Assembly: GCA_002928495.1 (NCBI GenBank)
Contig: PERF01000008.1
Location: 1-38,680, forward strand
Origin: Methylobacter sp.
GTDB lineage: Bacteria; Pseudomonadota; Gammaproteobacteria; Methylococcales; Methylomonadaceae
Length of the DNA: 38,680 nt
Reading direction: 5' to 3'
Part shown: positions 20,059-38,114 of the stretch, piece by piece
How positions within the stretch are numbered: position 1 is the stretch's first letter
How the letters are laid out: each line of letters opens with the position of its first letter
The notes under the pieces: generated by a model
Databases searched by the model: none
The model's input: the letters and a program-made list of their open reading frames with translations, nothing else
Told to the model about the DNA's origin: nothing
Program-made: the position numbers and the translations under genes

Positions 20059-21831
20059 TTACCGGATCTTTTTCAAACTCGCCTCATAAGCCGATTCGGA
20101 TAACAATTTGTTACGGCCTTCACGCAAAGTCAAAATTCGGTTCATGGCCACATCATCCAGCCATTGCGTGTTACCGTTGGGCCAGCGGACTTCAAGACTG
20201 GCAATTTTTTCCTTGCCAAGACCGAAATGCACAATTCTGCTAGAAGCACTATAAGTGGAAGTTCCACCGGCAATGGTTCTGATCATTTTTTTACCGCTAC
20301 GTGTAGTCAGCGTTAATTTCGCTCCTACTGCGTTTAGGTTGCTTTTAGGTGCATTACCTATTAAGCGCAACTCTACCCAATTTCCGTCAGTGCCTAGATT
20401 TTTAAAAAATTTTGGCGTTCCTTTGCCTGGGATTACAGTCCTGCCGAATGGGAATATTTCTTCGTACTGAGCCACGTTTTGCAAGAAAATATCCATTTGA
20501 CCATCTTTATTAAAATCGGCAATCGCTAAACCGCGCGCATCCAAGTAATTACCGTCATCACCGAAATTGGCGATATTCGAGGTAAAGCTTTCATCGCGAA
20601 AAGTGCCGTTGCCGTTATTAATTTGCAACCGGCTAGGACCAGCGCCTTCCCGCTCTCTTCCGATTACACCTACCGGTGCCAAATTCATTGCATAATATAA
20701 ATCCAGCCAGCCATCGTTGTTAAAATCAGCCATTGCGCAGCCCCAGGAAAACTGCTGATGCACTGAATCAGTCGCTTCTTTACCAACATCAGTAAAGGTG
20801 CCATCTCCGTTGTTACGGAACAAAGTCGGACGCGGGTTATCCCAAGTACTTGGCGGTGGCACCACTAAAGCGGGTAAAGAAGGATCACGGGTAATCCTTA
20901 GATCGCTGATATTAGTACTGAAAATATCTATCAAGCCATCATTGTTGTAATCACCAATAGTGATGCCCATCCATGCACCATATGCATTTAAATCACCCGA
21001 TTGGGCAGTTACTTTAGTAAACTTGCCCTGGCCTTCGTTACGGAAAACTTCAATAGGCCCGCGTTCTGTAGCAACAAATAAATCTATGTCGACATCGTTA
21101 TCGTAATCAAACCACACAATCGCCCAAGTGTTATAACCGGCAACCACATTGGCCTGTTCTGTAACATCGGTAAAAGTTAAATTGCCATTGTTACGGTAAA
21201 GACGACTGGGAGCGACCGGAATAATATCGCGGCCTGCCTCGGGCGGATTAAAGTCAAGATCTACCCAGCGACCCACCATAATGTCCAAATCGCCGTCATT
21301 ATCATAATCGGCCATGGCAATGCTGCTGTTATAACCATCTTCTGAAATGCCGGCCTGTTTGGTAATATCGCGGAAAGTGCCGTCGCCATTATTGATATAG
21401 AGCTTGTCTGGGCCGTCATTAGAGTCAATGCCGTCTCCTATGGTGGAACCATTTGCCACGTATAAATCGTCAAAACCATCGTTATTAAGGTCACCCACCG
21501 CGACACCGGTGCCTTGACCCAGATCAGCTACACCGGCTGCCGCGGCCACATCTGTAAAGGTACCGTTTTTATTATTACGAAATAAGGCATTGGGTTTACC
21601 TTTGCCATTCATAACATATAAATCTAAATGGCTATCGTTGTTGTAATCAATAAAACCGGCTCCGGGCATAAAGGTAAAACCGTCGGTTTGAAATGTGGGC
21701 GACAAGCTTGCCGCTATGTTTTCAAACTTAAGCTGTTTACGGGCAGAACTTTCTTTTGCATCTGCATTATGGGTTAATGCAATCAAGCCAGCTATAGGCA
21801 ATAAAACTATTCGGCTTATGATCAGTTTCAT
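20059..21831 (-). CDS. Secreted FG-GAP/VCBS repeat protein with ASPIC/UnbV domain (CRTAC1-like)
   Basis: This 590-residue protein has a signal peptide (ISRIVLLPIAGLIALTHNADA) and about seven FG-GAP/VCBS blades with calcium-binding DxNxDGxxD loops: FIDYNNDSHLDLYVMNG, VGDLNNDGFDDLYVANG, MADYDNDGDLDIMVGRW, WFDYDNDVDIDLFVATE, IGDYNNDGLIDIFSTN, MADFNNDGWLDLYYAM and IADFNKDGQMDIFLQN. These should form a beta-propeller. The C-terminal ASPIC/UnbV domain is seen in GNAPKSNLNAVGAKLTLTTR, VHFGLGKEKIASLEVRWPNG. Such proteins are extracellular, and their roles are mostly unknown. It is the first gene after the ECF sigma factor in the cluster. Confidence 0.9.
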   Translation of the reverse strand: MKLIISRIVLLPIAGLIALTHNADAKESSARKQLKFENIAASLSPTFQTDGFTFMPGAGFIDYNNDSHLDLYVMNGKGKPNALFRNNKNGTFTDVAAAAGVADLGQGTGVAVGDLNNDGFDDLYVANGSTIGDGIDSNDGPDKLYINNGDGTFRDITKQAGISEDGYNSSIAMADYDNDGDLDIMVGRWVDLDFNPPEAGRDIIPVAPSRLYRNNGNLTFTDVTEQANVVAGYNTWAIVWFDYDNDVDIDLFVATERGPIEVFRNEGQGKFTKVTAQSGDLNAYGAWMGITIGDYNNDGLIDIFSTNISDLRITRDPSLPALVVPPPSTWDNPRPTLFRNNGDGTFTDVGKEATDSVHQQFSWGCAMADFNNDGWLDLYYAMNLAPVGVIGREREGAGPSRLQINNGNGTFRDESFTSNIANFGDDGNYLDARGLAIADFNKDGQMDIFLQNVAQYEEIFPFGRTVIPGKGTPKFFKNLGTDGNWVELRLIGNAPKSNLNAVGAKLTLTTRSGKKMIRTIAGGTSTYSASSRIVHFGLGKEKIASLEVRWPNGNTQWLDDVAMNRILTLREGRNKLLSESAYEASLKKIR

Positions 21832-33333: not shown

Positions 33334-33864
33334 TTAATCGATTTCAATTGCCCATAGACTCCATAAACCAACAACAAGCAGAGTCATCAACCCTAACATA
33401 CCAAGTACAACGCACAGTAAATATAACCAAGCCACCGGTATGCAATGCAACATTCCATTAGCATGGACAAAAGGCCAAAACGGGTGCATATCGGCGTGCA
33501 TGATGCTGTCGAGAAAAACATGTGAAACTGTGCCTATCAATGCACCTGTAGAAGCGGCAAGCCAAGAAATATCCGGATTAACTTGTAGCCGGCGTAAATA
33601 TTTGAAATTCAATAACCTATTCCAGGTTTTAAGCAACTGCCGGCAAACTAATTTGCCTAAAAAAAGTGCCAATAATCCAATCGCTAATGCGCCTAAATAT
33701 GTGTGTGTAAATCCATGCAAGACCTTATCATGCCGCAAAATCCGTATTAATGGCTCAAGATCAATCAGCACTTGGGCAAAGCCGAATACCGTCAAGCTAA
33801 AAAACCGCCCGGCAACAGCTTTGATTGCGGCTCCAGGCCCCAGGTGAAACGGCGTAAATGGCAT
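33334..33864 (-). CDS. DUF4184-like membrane protein
   Basis: I use the ATG of MPFTPFHLGPGAAIKAVAGR at 33864, as this N-terminus is the conserved start of the family; the upstream ORF-track residues look non-coding. The 176-aa protein has the block FGFAQVLIDLEPLIRILRHD and KVLHGFTHTYLGALAIGLLA, a GFTH-type metal motif. SHVFLDSIMHADMHPFWPF gives another His/Asp site. Four membrane helices are likely. Related DUF457 proteins are predicted membrane-bound metal hydrolases. It is divergent from the DyP operon by 215 bases. Confidence 0.72.
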   Translation of the reverse strand: MPFTPFHLGPGAAIKAVAGRFFSLTVFGFAQVLIDLEPLIRILRHDKVLHGFTHTYLGALAIGLLALFLGKLVCRQLLKTWNRLLNFKYLRRLQVNPDISWLAASTGALIGTVSHVFLDSIMHADMHPFWPFVHANGMLHCIPVAWLYLLCVVLGMLGLMTLLVVGLWSLWAIEID

Positions 33865-34078
33865 ATCTTTAAAACTTATCGTATAGAAATCAATTAACCT
33901 AGAATTCTCAATAAATTGCATTTCAAACAGTTTAATGCAATGCTGGCGGCCTGTTTGCAGCCGGTTTAGGCAAACAGATAGACCGAGTGTACGGGTCGTG
34001 CAAGTCAAGCCGGGTAAGCATTTTCTCAAACAAAGCTGCCGGCAATTCCTTCATAAACAATAATAAGGGAGGTACCGT

Positions 34079-34753
34079 ATGTCAAATATAGCAGGCAAAG
34101 CGTATGCGATGAACGTGATCACACCGATCAAATCGTATTGGGCTTGGATCAATAAATTAATTTTTTGGGCGGCAATAAAATTTCCCGGCGCGCTGACCGG
34201 ATTGATAACTTTGTCATTAATCCACTACGCCCGCTGGGTAATCCTTAAGGACTCTGAATTTCCGCATTTGGCAAAGGAGCAGCCCAAAGAAAAACTTCAT
34301 TACACTTACATGCTGTTTTTCAGCAATTTCAACGGCAGTTGGGATCAATACGTGGATTCTTTCACCTTCGCTATCCCCGGCGGTCTGGATTTATTTTGGA
34401 AGTGGAATATACGTTATCCCAAGTCGGTGACGCTGACGCCATTTCACAAATACATCCGTTATAACCAAATAGAAACCATCCATTACTACAGCGCTTATCC
34501 TTTGGCGGCCGCCAACGATGTCAAAGCTGCCAAGCAAGTTAAAACCGCACTGACACAATTCCACCAAGACAGCCAAACCCTTTCCGACGATGAGTTTATG
34601 GCTGGGTACAAAACCTTGCTACGCGGTTTGCAGCATGATTTAGGCGATATGTACCCAACCCCCATCGTAACCATGGCGGCTTATGAAGTGCAGGAACGCA
34701 AATACAAACACGAACGTGAGCAAGCGGCTTTGGCAGGAGGTGAAAATGGCTAA
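34079..34753 (+). CDS. Unknown protein, paralogue of next gene, first gene of DyP operon
   Basis: This 224-residue protein starts MSNIAGKAYAMNVITPIK, similar to NISGNAYALTILAPIK in the next gene. Further on, YMLFFSNFNGSWDQYVDSF matches YLVFSCNFHGGPEGDLDGYL there, so the two are paralogues. It carries an extra hydrophobic stretch (about residues 27-52, INKLIFWAAIKFPGALTGLI) that may anchor it to the membrane. The C-terminus is charged. The function is unknown; conserved linkage to DyP peroxidases suggests a heme, lipid or substrate-delivery role. SD AAGGGAGGTACCGT is strong. It overlaps the next gene by eight bases. Confidence 0.82.
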   Translation: MSNIAGKAYAMNVITPIKSYWAWINKLIFWAAIKFPGALTGLITLSLIHYARWVILKDSEFPHLAKEQPKEKLHYTYMLFFSNFNGSWDQYVDSFTFAIPGGLDLFWKWNIRYPKSVTLTPFHKYIRYNQIETIHYYSAYPLAAANDVKAAKQVKTALTQFHQDSQTLSDDEFMAGYKTLLRGLQHDLGDMYPTPIVTMAAYEVQERKYKHEREQAALAGGENG

Positions 34754-35471
34754 GCGCAATCCCAACATCAGTGGCAACGCGTATGCGCTGACCATTTTAG
34801 CGCCGATAAAAAACGGCTATACCGAAGAACAAATTGCTTATGCCGACATAGTGAGATGCCGGCTGCAAGATTGGAATAATCAGGACTATAGCCCGATGAC
34901 ACAGGTGCCGCAAACTTATCTCTGCCGTTATTACGTGCTAGACGATGTTTACACCGAATCCTTACCGGGTGCGGATCCGCGCAGCCGGTGGCTGGATTTG
35001 CTGACCGCCTTGCCTTTCGGCGGAATCGGCAACAAACTCCGGGTCGGCATGTTGCCTAAGGAAGACCATCTGCAATCGCGCTATCTGGTATTTTCCTGCA
35101 ATTTTCACGGCGGCCCCGAAGGCGATTTGGACGGCTATTTACGCGGCATGTGGCAAGCCATCAGCGGACAAATCAAAGACATCTGGGGCTTTTGTTACGG
35201 CTTTGAGGAGGTCGATAATGCCGATAAATTTATCGCCTACATGAAAAAATGCCAGCTGCCTGCCGCGCTGTTCTTCGTCGGCTCGAATGACGACCCCTTA
35301 CCGGAACAGTTGAAAGCTTTATACCTAAAACAAGAATTCGCCAACTTTGCAGTCGCCAATCAAGGCCTGGATGCCGCCGCGTTACGCGCGAATTTCAAGG
35401 CGTTTATTGAACGCGTACAACCGAATGATGTTAACGGGCCAACCTGGCCGGCCGGCAAATATACCGTTTAG
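34746..35471 (+). CDS. Unknown protein, paralogue of the preceding gene, DyP operon
   Basis: This 241-residue protein begins MAKRNPNISGNAYALTILAP. The ATG at 34746 follows a near-perfect AGGAGGTGAAA SD that lies inside the end of the previous gene, so translation is coupled; the ORF-track start at 34683 is upstream of the SD. It has the shared domain (QSRYLVFSCNFHGGPEGDLD) and a C-terminal part GFCYGFEEVDNADKFIAYMK, ALFFVGSNDDPLPEQLKAL. No signal peptide and no obvious cofactor motif. The function is unknown. It lies 11 bases before the DyP gene. Confidence 0.82.
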   Translation: MAKRNPNISGNAYALTILAPIKNGYTEEQIAYADIVRCRLQDWNNQDYSPMTQVPQTYLCRYYVLDDVYTESLPGADPRSRWLDLLTALPFGGIGNKLRVGMLPKEDHLQSRYLVFSCNFHGGPEGDLDGYLRGMWQAISGQIKDIWGFCYGFEEVDNADKFIAYMKKCQLPAALFFVGSNDDPLPEQLKALYLKQEFANFAVANQGLDAAALRANFKAFIERVQPNDVNGPTWPAGKYTV

Positions 35472-35482
35472 GGGAGGCGAAG

Positions 35483-37045
35483 ATGACACAAAAATTAGAA
35501 CTAACCGACATCCAGGGCAATGTGCTGCGCGCCTATGGCCGTTTCGGCTATCCGGTTGCCCGCTATGTATTTTTTAATATCCGCGATGACCGCAAAGGCC
35601 GCGCGTTTGTTGACGCCATCAGCAAACGGGTGACCACGGCCGTGGAATGGGGCGACGGCCCCGGCCAAATCAAACAGCCGGATTGGACACTCAATATTGC
35701 CTTTGCTTACCAAGCCTTGAAAGAGCTTGGCGTGCCAAGATCATCGCTGATTGGCTTCTCGCCTGAATTTATCAGCGGCATGAAAGACCGCCGAGACATC
35801 TTGGGAGACGACGGTCCGAGCTCGCCCGAGCATTGGGATCCCATCTGGTGCAGCAACCGGGTGGAGCGTGACAAGGACATCCATATTTTTATTTCGTTGA
35901 ATGCCCGCTTGCCGCAATTTCTGCTGGAAGCTTATCAATGGCTGCTGGGCGAAGTTGACAAAACCGGGGGCGGCGTCGTGCAGTTGGACGGCCACCGCGG
36001 CGACAACGGTGAAATCCTGCCTTATCAGGACAGCCACATCGTAATGGAAAACGGCCAGCCCACGGCGAAAGAGCATTTCGGCTACACCGACGGAATCAGC
36101 GATCCGGTGTTTGAAGGCGTGCCTTACGACGAAGCCCGTTTACCGGGGCGCGGCAAACAAATGCCGAACGGCAAATGGGCGCCGTTGGCGACCGGTGAAT
36201 TCATCTTGGGCCATGTCGATGAAGCTCACGAATACCCGCCGGCGCCGGAACCGGTTTTGCTGTCCCGCAACGGCACCTACATGATTTACCGCAAGCTGCA
36301 TGAAAATGTCGGCACCTTTGAAGCTTACCTGGAAGAGCATGGCAGTAAATTCCCCGGCGGCAAAGAACTGTTGGCAGCCAAATTCGTCGGTCGCTGGCGC
36401 GACAACGGCGCACCGTTGGTCAGCGCGCCGGATACGGCCGCCAAAGCCAAGTTCGATGCCGATTTTGCCGCCGCCGATGCCAAAACCAAAGACAAAATGC
36501 TCAGCGACTTCACCTACGACAACGACATGAGCGGCGGCAAATGTCCGTTTAGCGCCCACATCCGCCGGATTAACCCGCGCGCATCCTTGGAAATGGTGCG
36601 CGGCGACAAGCCCGGCGCCATGAAAATCAGCACCGATGCCTTCGACACACCGGGCGCCTTAACCAACCGCCGCCGCCTGCTCCGGCGCGGCCTGCCTTAC
36701 GGCGAAGTGAAAGACCGCACACGCGACGACGGCAATCACGGTATTGTTATCATGATGCTGAATGCCGACATCAACCGTCAGTTCGAATTCGTCCAGCAAC
36801 AATGGGTCAATTACGGCAACGACTTTATCGCCGCTAACGACAAGGAAATCATCCTGGGCAATCACAGCGTTGATGATAAATTACCCAGCAAAGCCGTGTT
36901 GCAAGTTGAACCCGACAGCAACGAAGCGCCTTACATCCTGCCTAAAATCCCGCGCTTTGTGGAAACGCGCGGCGGCGAGTATTTCTTTGTACCCAGCATG
37001 ACCGCACTAAGAATGATCGCCAAAGGCGTGGTTGACCCAACGTAA
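35483..37045 (+). CDS. DyP-type heme peroxidase
   Basis: This 520-residue dye-decolorising-type peroxidase oxidises organic substrates with hydrogen peroxide. The GxxDG motif with the catalytic Asp is in HFGYTDGISDP (Asp203). The proximal heme His is in FSAHIRRINPR (His359), and the distal Arg in LTNRRRLLRRGLPYGE. The N-terminal LELTDIQGNVLRAYGRFGYP is typical of the longer C/D-type DyPs. There is no signal peptide. SD AGGGGAGGCGAAG is strong. It ends an operon with two paralogous unknown genes, and the catalase-like gene faces it from the other side. Confidence 0.92.
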   Translation: MTQKLELTDIQGNVLRAYGRFGYPVARYVFFNIRDDRKGRAFVDAISKRVTTAVEWGDGPGQIKQPDWTLNIAFAYQALKELGVPRSSLIGFSPEFISGMKDRRDILGDDGPSSPEHWDPIWCSNRVERDKDIHIFISLNARLPQFLLEAYQWLLGEVDKTGGGVVQLDGHRGDNGEILPYQDSHIVMENGQPTAKEHFGYTDGISDPVFEGVPYDEARLPGRGKQMPNGKWAPLATGEFILGHVDEAHEYPPAPEPVLLSRNGTYMIYRKLHENVGTFEAYLEEHGSKFPGGKELLAAKFVGRWRDNGAPLVSAPDTAAKAKFDADFAAADAKTKDKMLSDFTYDNDMSGGKCPFSAHIRRINPRASLEMVRGDKPGAMKISTDAFDTPGALTNRRRLLRRGLPYGEVKDRTRDDGNHGIVIMMLNADINRQFEFVQQQWVNYGNDFIAANDKEIILGNHSVDDKLPSKAVLQVEPDSNEAPYILPKIPRFVETRGGEYFFVPSMTALRMIAKGVVDPT

Positions 37046-37066
37046 TACCACCTTGCATCCAACCCG

Positions 37067-37100
37067 GCCCAAGCCCCGCGTTTGCGCGCGGGGCTTGGGC
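37067..37100. terminator. Long GC-rich hairpin between convergent genes
   Basis: GCCCAAGCCCCGCG and CGCGGGGCTTGGGC form a perfect 14-bp stem with a 6-base loop between the DyP stop (37045) and the catalase-like stop (37104). It is a likely bidirectional terminator; T tracts are weak on both sides, so it may rely on the stem strength. Confidence 0.8.
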
Positions 37101-37103
37101 ATT

Positions 37104-38114
37104 CTAAATGTCCCAGCCGGTAGGTTCTTGCCTGGGCACTTTATTGTATTCATGGCGAAACGCCGAAATCGTTTCATAAACCACGCGCCGGGCTCGGTTA
37201 ATGCCGCCTAGCGGACGGTGTTCCGGCAACGCCCGCCATGGCGTGTACGATAAATTTTCGCCGAAAACCTTGTGTGCTTCGGTATCGAAGTCTTGCTGAA
37301 AAATCCTGATCGTCGCCACTTTGCGGAACGGCGACAACGCCTCCGGCCACTCTACGCCGGGGTCTTCAATGGGCATGGCGACGGCATCGGTTTGCAGCTG
37401 GACGGCAAAATCAAACACTGCATCGCCCTCTTGCAACTGCTTGACCATGGCTAAGCGCAAATAATCATGGTCGGGATTGTCCGGAATTGGATAAGCCTTG
37501 GTAAGCTGCGGAATGGCGGAATATTTGACGGCGGACTCGCCCAGCAAATACGGCGTGGTGCTGAAATAGCGGATTTGCAAAGGGTTGGCGAACTTGAGCA
37601 TGGAGCGCAATAGATTAATGGCTACACGTAAATGACCCAGGAAAAACACGATTTTTGCCCAAAGTCCACCGGTAACCGAAGCAATCAGCTGATCAAATTC
37701 CTCTACATTTTTGGTGACAAAGCGGCTAGTGCTGATCAAAATAAAATCGTGGGTTTGGCAATTTTTGTCCGACTCCAACAATTTTTCGCCGGGCACACCC
37801 ATCAATTTAATTGCCATGCCGCGAATGTCGCGGTCTTTATCGGGATTTATCGAGCCGTCCTGGTTGGAAAACCGAATCCACGCTGGATAGCTTTTAGGCT
37901 CGCTGAAAACCCCGATTTTCAGCTCCGGCGGCAAATCGGCTTCGACAATAAACTCCGCTTTTACCAGGCCGTGCATTTTTGGGTGGGCATCGCGGCGCAT
38001 GATGCCCGTCGGATTGTCGCGGATGATTTTGGCTTTCAGCCGGGCGGCAAGGTCGGCAGTAAACTGCGCTTCGTTGGACGGGATGATTTCTTGTGCTAGC
38101 GGTGGTGTTGCCAT
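37104..38114 (-). CDS. Catalase-family heme protein (small, possibly lipid-hydroperoxide acting)
   Basis: This 336-residue protein is much shorter than true catalases (about 480 or more) and fits the small catalase-like group related to SrpA and coral allene oxide synthase. The distal His region is RRDAHPKMHGLVKAEF (His44 likely). The RxRG-like INPDKDRDIRGMAIKLMG, the Asn region ESDKNCQTHDFILIS and the proximal Tyr in RYFSTTPYLLG follow. I use the ATG of MATPPLAQEI at 38114, preceded by CAGGGGGAATCACT; the ORF-track upstream part has no signal sequence. It may act on organic peroxides; whether it dismutates hydrogen peroxide is unknown. It converges with the DyP operon. Confidence 0.82.
   Translation of the reverse strand: MATPPLAQEIIPSNEAQFTADLAARLKAKIIRDNPTGIMRRDAHPKMHGLVKAEFIVEADLPPELKIGVFSEPKSYPAWIRFSNQDGSINPDKDRDIRGMAIKLMGVPGEKLLESDKNCQTHDFILISTSRFVTKNVEEFDQLIASVTGGLWAKIVFFLGHLRVAINLLRSMLKFANPLQIRYFSTTPYLLGESAVKYSAIPQLTKAYPIPDNPDHDYLRLAMVKQLQEGDAVFDFAVQLQTDAVAMPIEDPGVEWPEALSPFRKVATIRIFQQDFDTEAHKVFGENLSYTPWRALPEHRPLGGINRARRVVYETISAFRHEYNKVPRQEPTGWDI

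Follow-up and report, generated by a model that had tools for sequence, protein, structure and literature searches.

Two paralogous proteins and a DyP-type peroxidase with an exchangeable second heme enzyme point to an undescribed bacterial enzyme system

In a 38,680-nucleotide stretch of Methylobacter sp. DNA (contig PERF01000008.1; the window), two paralogous genes, here called A and B, precede a gene for a DyP-type peroxidase, and a gene for a short catalase-like heme protein (CatL) faces them. Comparison across genomes showed that the second heme enzyme of this module is interchangeable: it is either a CatL or a P450, and almost never both. Together, the trio and its second heme enzyme point to a bacterial enzyme system not yet described, which may process lipid peroxides. 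The reading that we prefer, with a probability of about 0.45, is that A, B and DyP are central to a conserved two-heme-enzyme module, probably one associated with the membrane, in which DyP and its partner act on a membrane-derived hydroperoxide.

Organization of the locus

The features of the locus are as follows (positions in the window).

34067-34073, + strand: Shine-Dalgarno sequence GGGAGGT of gene A
34079-34753, + strand: gene A, 224 aa, paralogous protein without a named family, with a hydrophobic first helix (residues ~19-48); conserved in 80 loci
34735-34742, + strand: Shine-Dalgarno sequence AGGAGGTG of gene B, within the 3' end of A
34746-35471, + strand: gene B, 241 aa, paralogue of A with a predicted ferredoxin-like core
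35471-35477, + strand: Shine-Dalgarno sequence GGGGAGG of the DyP gene
35483-37045, + strand: DyP-type peroxidase gene, 520 aa
36080-36094, + strand: DyP distal motif GYTDG, residues 200-204, with the catalytic Asp203
36557-36559, + strand: DyP His359, proximal heme ligand
37067-37100, strand-neutral: 15-bp hairpin between the convergent DyP and CatL genes, a probable bidirectional terminator
37104-38114, - strand: CatL gene, 336 aa, short catalase-like heme protein; partner enzyme in this genome
37176-37178, - strand: CatL proximal Tyr313 of RxxxY (Arg309-x3-Tyr313)
37983-37985, - strand: CatL distal His44

A, B and DyP form a tight operon (34079-37045), in which B starts 8 nt inside A and the DyP gene starts 11 nt downstream of B. 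Both paralogue genes carry the strong Shine-Dalgarno sequences that the initial annotation had ascribed to them, GGGAGGT for A and AGGAGGTG for B, and GGGGAGG precedes the DyP gene. The hairpin that follows DyP is a perfect 15-bp stem (-35 kcal/mol, z -4.7) common to both converging genes, and it probably acts as a terminator in both directions. Since CatL is convergent behind this hairpin, it lies outside the A-B-DyP transcript in the window; in other genomes (e.g., loci L019, L070 and L071), CatL lies downstream of DyP on the same strand. Elsewhere in the window, a gene for a YdjM/DUF4184-type inner membrane protein (33334-34029, - strand) is divergent from gene A, and an FG-GAP repeat protein with an UnbV_ASPIC domain is encoded at 20059-21831 (- strand).

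The A-B-DyP module across genomes

The A-B-DyP module itself is well supported. A scan of a genome collection with A as the query returned 80 loci, from Methylococcaceae, Nitrosomonas, Undibacterium and other Oxalobacteraceae, Burkholderia, Thalassolituus, Acidobacteriota and other groups, and every untruncated locus holds A, B and DyP in that order on one strand. Because these loci had been selected by A, an unbiased test was run on genome sets. In 229 genomes of Gammaproteobacteria, the DyP family profile matches four and A matches the same four. In 399 genomes of Pseudomonadota, the DyP family is present in 29 and A in 18, and in all 18 of the latter A is adjacent or fused to DyP; the dedicated linkage of the paralogues to DyP, which had been put forward beforehand as a refutable claim, was thus upheld. 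With iterated A/B profiles, 27 of the 29 DyP genomes of this set show an A/B-type domain next to DyP; the E-values are optimistic, the profiles having been built over fetched loci that are partly the same. Four DyPs with neither A nor B nearby cluster together on the DyP tree, separate from the module DyPs. The distribution of the module is patchy, with 2 of 41 close relatives carrying it.

Natural fusions also tie the parts of the module together. Proteins of 1400-1630 aa encoded in Rhizobiales, Rhodobacterales and some Gammaproteobacteria combine a P450, a B-like domain (sometimes undetectable), transmembrane spans, an A-like domain and DyP. Shorter combinations include A-DyP in Sinorhizobium (562 aa), B-transmembrane-A in Skermanella (558 aa), A-A proteins of ~430 aa and, at locus L165, a DyP-CatL protein of 900 aa. 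Separately, locus L152 (G369:C105, 392-5155) encodes a 1587-aa protein with B-like and DyP-like domains and ~770 further residues without module domains.

The peroxidase of the window scores above the cut-off of PF21105 (33.0 against 27.5 bits) and below those of PF20628 (18.5 against 20) and TIGR01413 (83.1 against 100.5; E 2e-23). Judged by sequence, the catalytic residues are intact across the module: the catalytic Asp of GXXDG is kept in 115 of 115 module DyPs (GYTDG in the window), the proximal His359 in 117 of 117 and the distal Arg of the RRG motif in 114 of 115. No signal peptide is evident in the DyP sequence, and the enzyme would be cytoplasmic. In these conserved residues and in having no evident signal peptide, it resembles class C/V DyPs such as DrDyP of D. 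radiodurans (PDB 8re3); in contrast to them, the module DyP is longer (520 vs. 445 aa; E about 1e-45 to DrDyP) and is near-obligately associated with the A/B proteins and a second heme enzyme. The DyP-encapsulin and EfeUOB systems are other conserved gene associations of DyPs, but neither an encapsulin nor an EfeU/EfeO-like cluster was found among the recurring module neighbors scanned. We know of no established dioxygenase activity for DyPs. For DyP peroxidases in general, little is known of what they do in nature or which substrates they use there (PMC10820274).

The A and B proteins

The initial annotation had derived A and B from a gene duplication, and their paralogy is borne out by profile comparison. 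As single sequences, the two proteins match with a BLASTP E of 5e-5 at 19% identity, and their family profiles align over 191 columns with 99% hhalign probability and an E of 3e-18. The two sequence blocks described as shared needed some correction, in that the first is present but reads NI(A/S)GxAYAxxxxxPIK, and the second, FSxNF(N/H)G, is exact in B (FSCNFHG) and a near-fit in A (FFSNFNG). For neither protein did a Pfam or NCBIfam profile score above its cut-off. Descent of A and B from a DyP half-domain was also considered and ruled out, as profile comparison with DyP shows no similarity.

The predicted structure of B (pLDDT 88) has a beta-alpha-beta-beta-alpha order and additional C-terminal helices. 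Its top PDB structures are mostly dimeric ferredoxin-like alpha+beta barrels, matched weakly at E 0.04-0.7, and these barrel-type neighbors include methylmuconolactone isomerase, SP1 and EthD-type proteins. The same search of the PDB returned no fold match at E<=0.001, and a sequence search of the PDB with the B family returned nothing significant. For A, the model is of low confidence (pLDDT 71), and its fold search was set aside as meaningless because the model is too weak. The proposal of a common fold is therefore based on the sequence profiles, and that of the fold class on the weak structural match of B, by which A and B are probably ferredoxin-like proteins of the dimeric alpha+beta-barrel type.

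It had further been suggested that one paralogue, having gained a hydrophobic segment, might hold the complex at the membrane. The segment is the first helix of A, whose best 19-residue hydropathy of 1.64 is borderline for a membrane span, and among 65 A orthologues only 13 attain 1.6. On its own, this helix is thus unsupported as a definite transmembrane anchor. Clear spans are seen only in the fused relatives, where they lie between the B-like and A-like domains, and their position between two A/B-type domains supports a membrane location, so that the suggestion survives through the fusions and not through the helix of A itself.

Exchange of the second heme enzyme

A search within 4.5 kb of 117 DyP genes found a P450 at 41, a CatL at 27, both at none and neither at 35, with 14 more at a contig edge. 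The mutual exclusion of P450 and CatL at the locus has a Fisher p of 6e-8, uncorrected for shared ancestry, and partner type changes at least 11 times on the DyP tree. Such changes occur even among the near relatives of the window, where loci L014-L017 have a P450 and L018, L019 and the window have CatL. A partner absent from the locus may be encoded elsewhere in the genome, and whole-genome searches showed the exclusion rule still followed: both types occur in 3 genomes, CatL only in 22, P450 only in 23 and neither in 9 (Fisher 1e-5, likewise uncorrected for shared ancestry and with several incomplete MAGs in the count). For example, the P450 is present and CatL absent in four Undibacterium genomes, and the reverse holds for U. 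nitidum and several Thalassolituus, where CatL occurs without such a P450. A tree-paired test of the exclusion gave the expected direction in every informative pair and was underpowered, the pairs being too few. In the genome of L052 (G682:C117), a Nitrosomonas MAG of the P450 type, a close CatL lies on another contig, which may reflect contamination or a true double.

CatL scores 19.6 bits against PF00199, below the Pfam gathering score of 25. The window protein keeps both the catalase distal His44 and the proximal RxxxY; nearly all CatL relatives retain the latter and most the former. In a four-member clade that includes the DyP-CatL fusion, the distal His is replaced by Asn, so that, from this substitution, plain catalase activity by the usual mechanism is unlikely for that clade. 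At the fusion locus, a second, separate catalase-like gene (L165, 1179-2420) has Gln at the distal His position. The nearest solved structure to CatL is MAP2744c of Mycobacterium avium subsp. paratuberculosis (PDB 3e4w; profile E 1e-10), a catalase-like protein of similar length and low identity, for which we know of no DyP context. The CatL profile also reaches the coral allene oxide synthase (AOS; 1u5u) weakly, at E 3e-4. Where the coral enzyme has the distal pair Thr66-His67, the window CatL has Ala43-His44. According to a reference quoted in PMC5617202, a T66V change gives cAOS catalase activity; given Ala43 at the Thr66 position, the window CatL may have more in common with peroxidases or catalases. 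The papers found on y4iL-type catalases gave no functional information.

The I-helix acid of the P450 acid-alcohol pair is Pro in 36 of 39 partner P450s (GAIPTT and similar), the three exceptions being Asp (L068), Ala (L160) and His (L161). The acid of the ordinary O2-activating signature (A/G)Gx(D/E)T is thus missing, most partner P450s keep its Thr, and essentially all have the heme-ligand Cys motif FGxGxHxCxG or variants of it. In 14 loci (L014, L044, L052-L054 and others), a GST-like gene (~265 aa) adjoins the P450, which would suit an electrophilic product. In another genome of the same family (G009; L007, 291-8771), the module has a P450 of 624 aa and a short membrane protein before it and a GMC oxidoreductase and an alpha/beta hydrolase after it. 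The recurring neighbors across loci include no lipid-metabolism gene, nor did a lipoxygenase or a known dioxygenase turn up alongside the module.

Proposed function and alternatives

Two unrelated heme families swap beside one peroxidase, and the known chemistry that they share is the rearrangement or cleavage of fatty-acid hydroperoxides, which argues for a hydroperoxide-processing module. Catalase-related allene oxide synthase and hydroperoxide lyase process fatty-acid hydroperoxides (PMC5617202; for a Nostoc enzyme, PMC13049297), as do self-sufficient P450s such as CYP74 and those that partner fungal dioxygenases (PMC13049297). In the mechanism that we propose, A and B would be paralogous adaptors, likely working as a pair at the membrane, that retain or supply the cytoplasmic DyP and present a hydrophobic substrate to DyP and the partner. 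A membrane-derived hydroperoxide would be handled by the two enzymes in turn: DyP would consume or form a peroxide-level intermediate, and the partner, CatL or P450, would rearrange or cleave it with no outside electrons, in a chemistry modeled on the coral and cyanobacterial catalase-related enzymes, CYP74 and the DOX-linked P450s. The adaptor role, the reaction order and the lipid substrate are what we infer here. Several observations weigh against this reading: lipid-metabolism genes do not recur near the module and neither a lipoxygenase nor a known dioxygenase accompanies it, the window CatL has Ala43 at the Thr66 position of coral AOS, most partner P450s keep the Thr of the acid-alcohol pair, dioxygenase activity is not established for DyPs, and the structural evidence for an adaptor role is weak. 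Only tentatively do we consider a widespread and so far undescribed bacterial system of the oxylipin (hydroperoxide-metabolizing) type, in which a membrane-anchored A/B adaptor serves a DyP acting first and either of the unrelated heme proteins acts as hydroperoxide isomerase or lyase; such a system would have been invented independently of LOX-cAOS and DOX-CYP, as the third of its kind.

Among the other explanations, one in which the substrate is a non-lipid (or an isoprenoid or aromatic) small molecule is rather doubtful. DyP with H2O2 would yield a radical or oxidized intermediate that the partner finishes, in a short biosynthetic or degradative pathway. DyPs do take aromatics, Mn2+ and beta-carotene (PMC10820274), the oxidoreductase and hydrolase genes that adjoin the module in G009 would fit such a pathway, and so would the occurrence of the module in methanotrophs, ammonia oxidizers and hydrocarbon-associated bacteria; however, biosynthetic neighbors do not recur across loci, and two unrelated, repeatedly swapped partners would need one substrate-specific reaction in common. 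Simple peroxide defense, with DyP and CatL clearing H2O2 or organic peroxides while A and B hold both at the membrane, appears unlikely. Both enzyme families act on peroxides and the window CatL has its catalase residues, distal His and proximal Tyr, in place, but this explanation is weakened by the alternation with the P450, which is the commoner partner and nearly exclusive with CatL, and by the loss of the distal His in a clade still linked, even fused, to DyP. The patchy distribution is likewise unlike that of a housekeeping defense.

The presence of CatL beside the DyP operon of the window could also be incidental, a common gene being a neighbor by chance. CatL there is convergent behind its own hairpin, and it is widespread, occurring in 28 module-free genomes of the 399-genome set, by which its candidacy as a module-exclusive protein was rejected. 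Chance is nevertheless highly improbable: 27 loci have CatL, on either strand, no more than 4.5 kb from DyP, one has it fused to DyP, and CatL is enriched with the module (9 of 29 module genomes vs. 28 of 370 others, p 5e-4). Its proximity and the L165 fusion support CatL as part of the system, as the initial annotation had held; what that annotation lacked is the alternative partner, a P450 missing the I-helix acid, with which CatL is interchangeable.

Relation to known systems and significance

The hydroperoxide-processing module that we favor has counterparts in known two-enzyme systems. In the fungal DOX-CYP fusions and the COX-CYP cascade (linoleate diol synthases, allene oxide synthases), a peroxide-handling heme enzyme is likewise joined, by fusion or pairing, to a P450 whose acid-alcohol pair differs from the ordinary one; in the module, however, the first enzyme is a DyP and not a COX-like dioxygenase, and it is separated from the P450 by A/B domains and membrane spans. 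The coral AOS-LOX and the cyanobacterial catalase-related hydroperoxide lyase with 10S-DOX similarly join a short catalase-like heme protein to a partner, sometimes by fusion, whereas in the module the partner is a DyP and there is no lipoxygenase, and the residue preceding the distal His of CatL is Ala and not Thr66. Each enzyme of the module belongs to a known superfamily. A search of the open-access literature, with most subscription journals outside its scope, found no relevant paper on DyP-P450 or DyP-catalase fusions or operons. Within that literature, the A/B family, its near-obligate tie to a single clade of DyPs and the alternation of P450 with CatL have no prior description, and an earlier one elsewhere is possible.

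A DyP clade with near-obligate partners and a second heme enzyme makes the role of a DyP testable. The repeated replacement of CatL by P450 and the reverse, each also found fused to the module, offers a rare natural experiment, in which the reaction that both enzymes can perform is the likely function of the module. If that shared reaction is hydroperoxide rearrangement, the module would represent a new bacterial oxylipin route.
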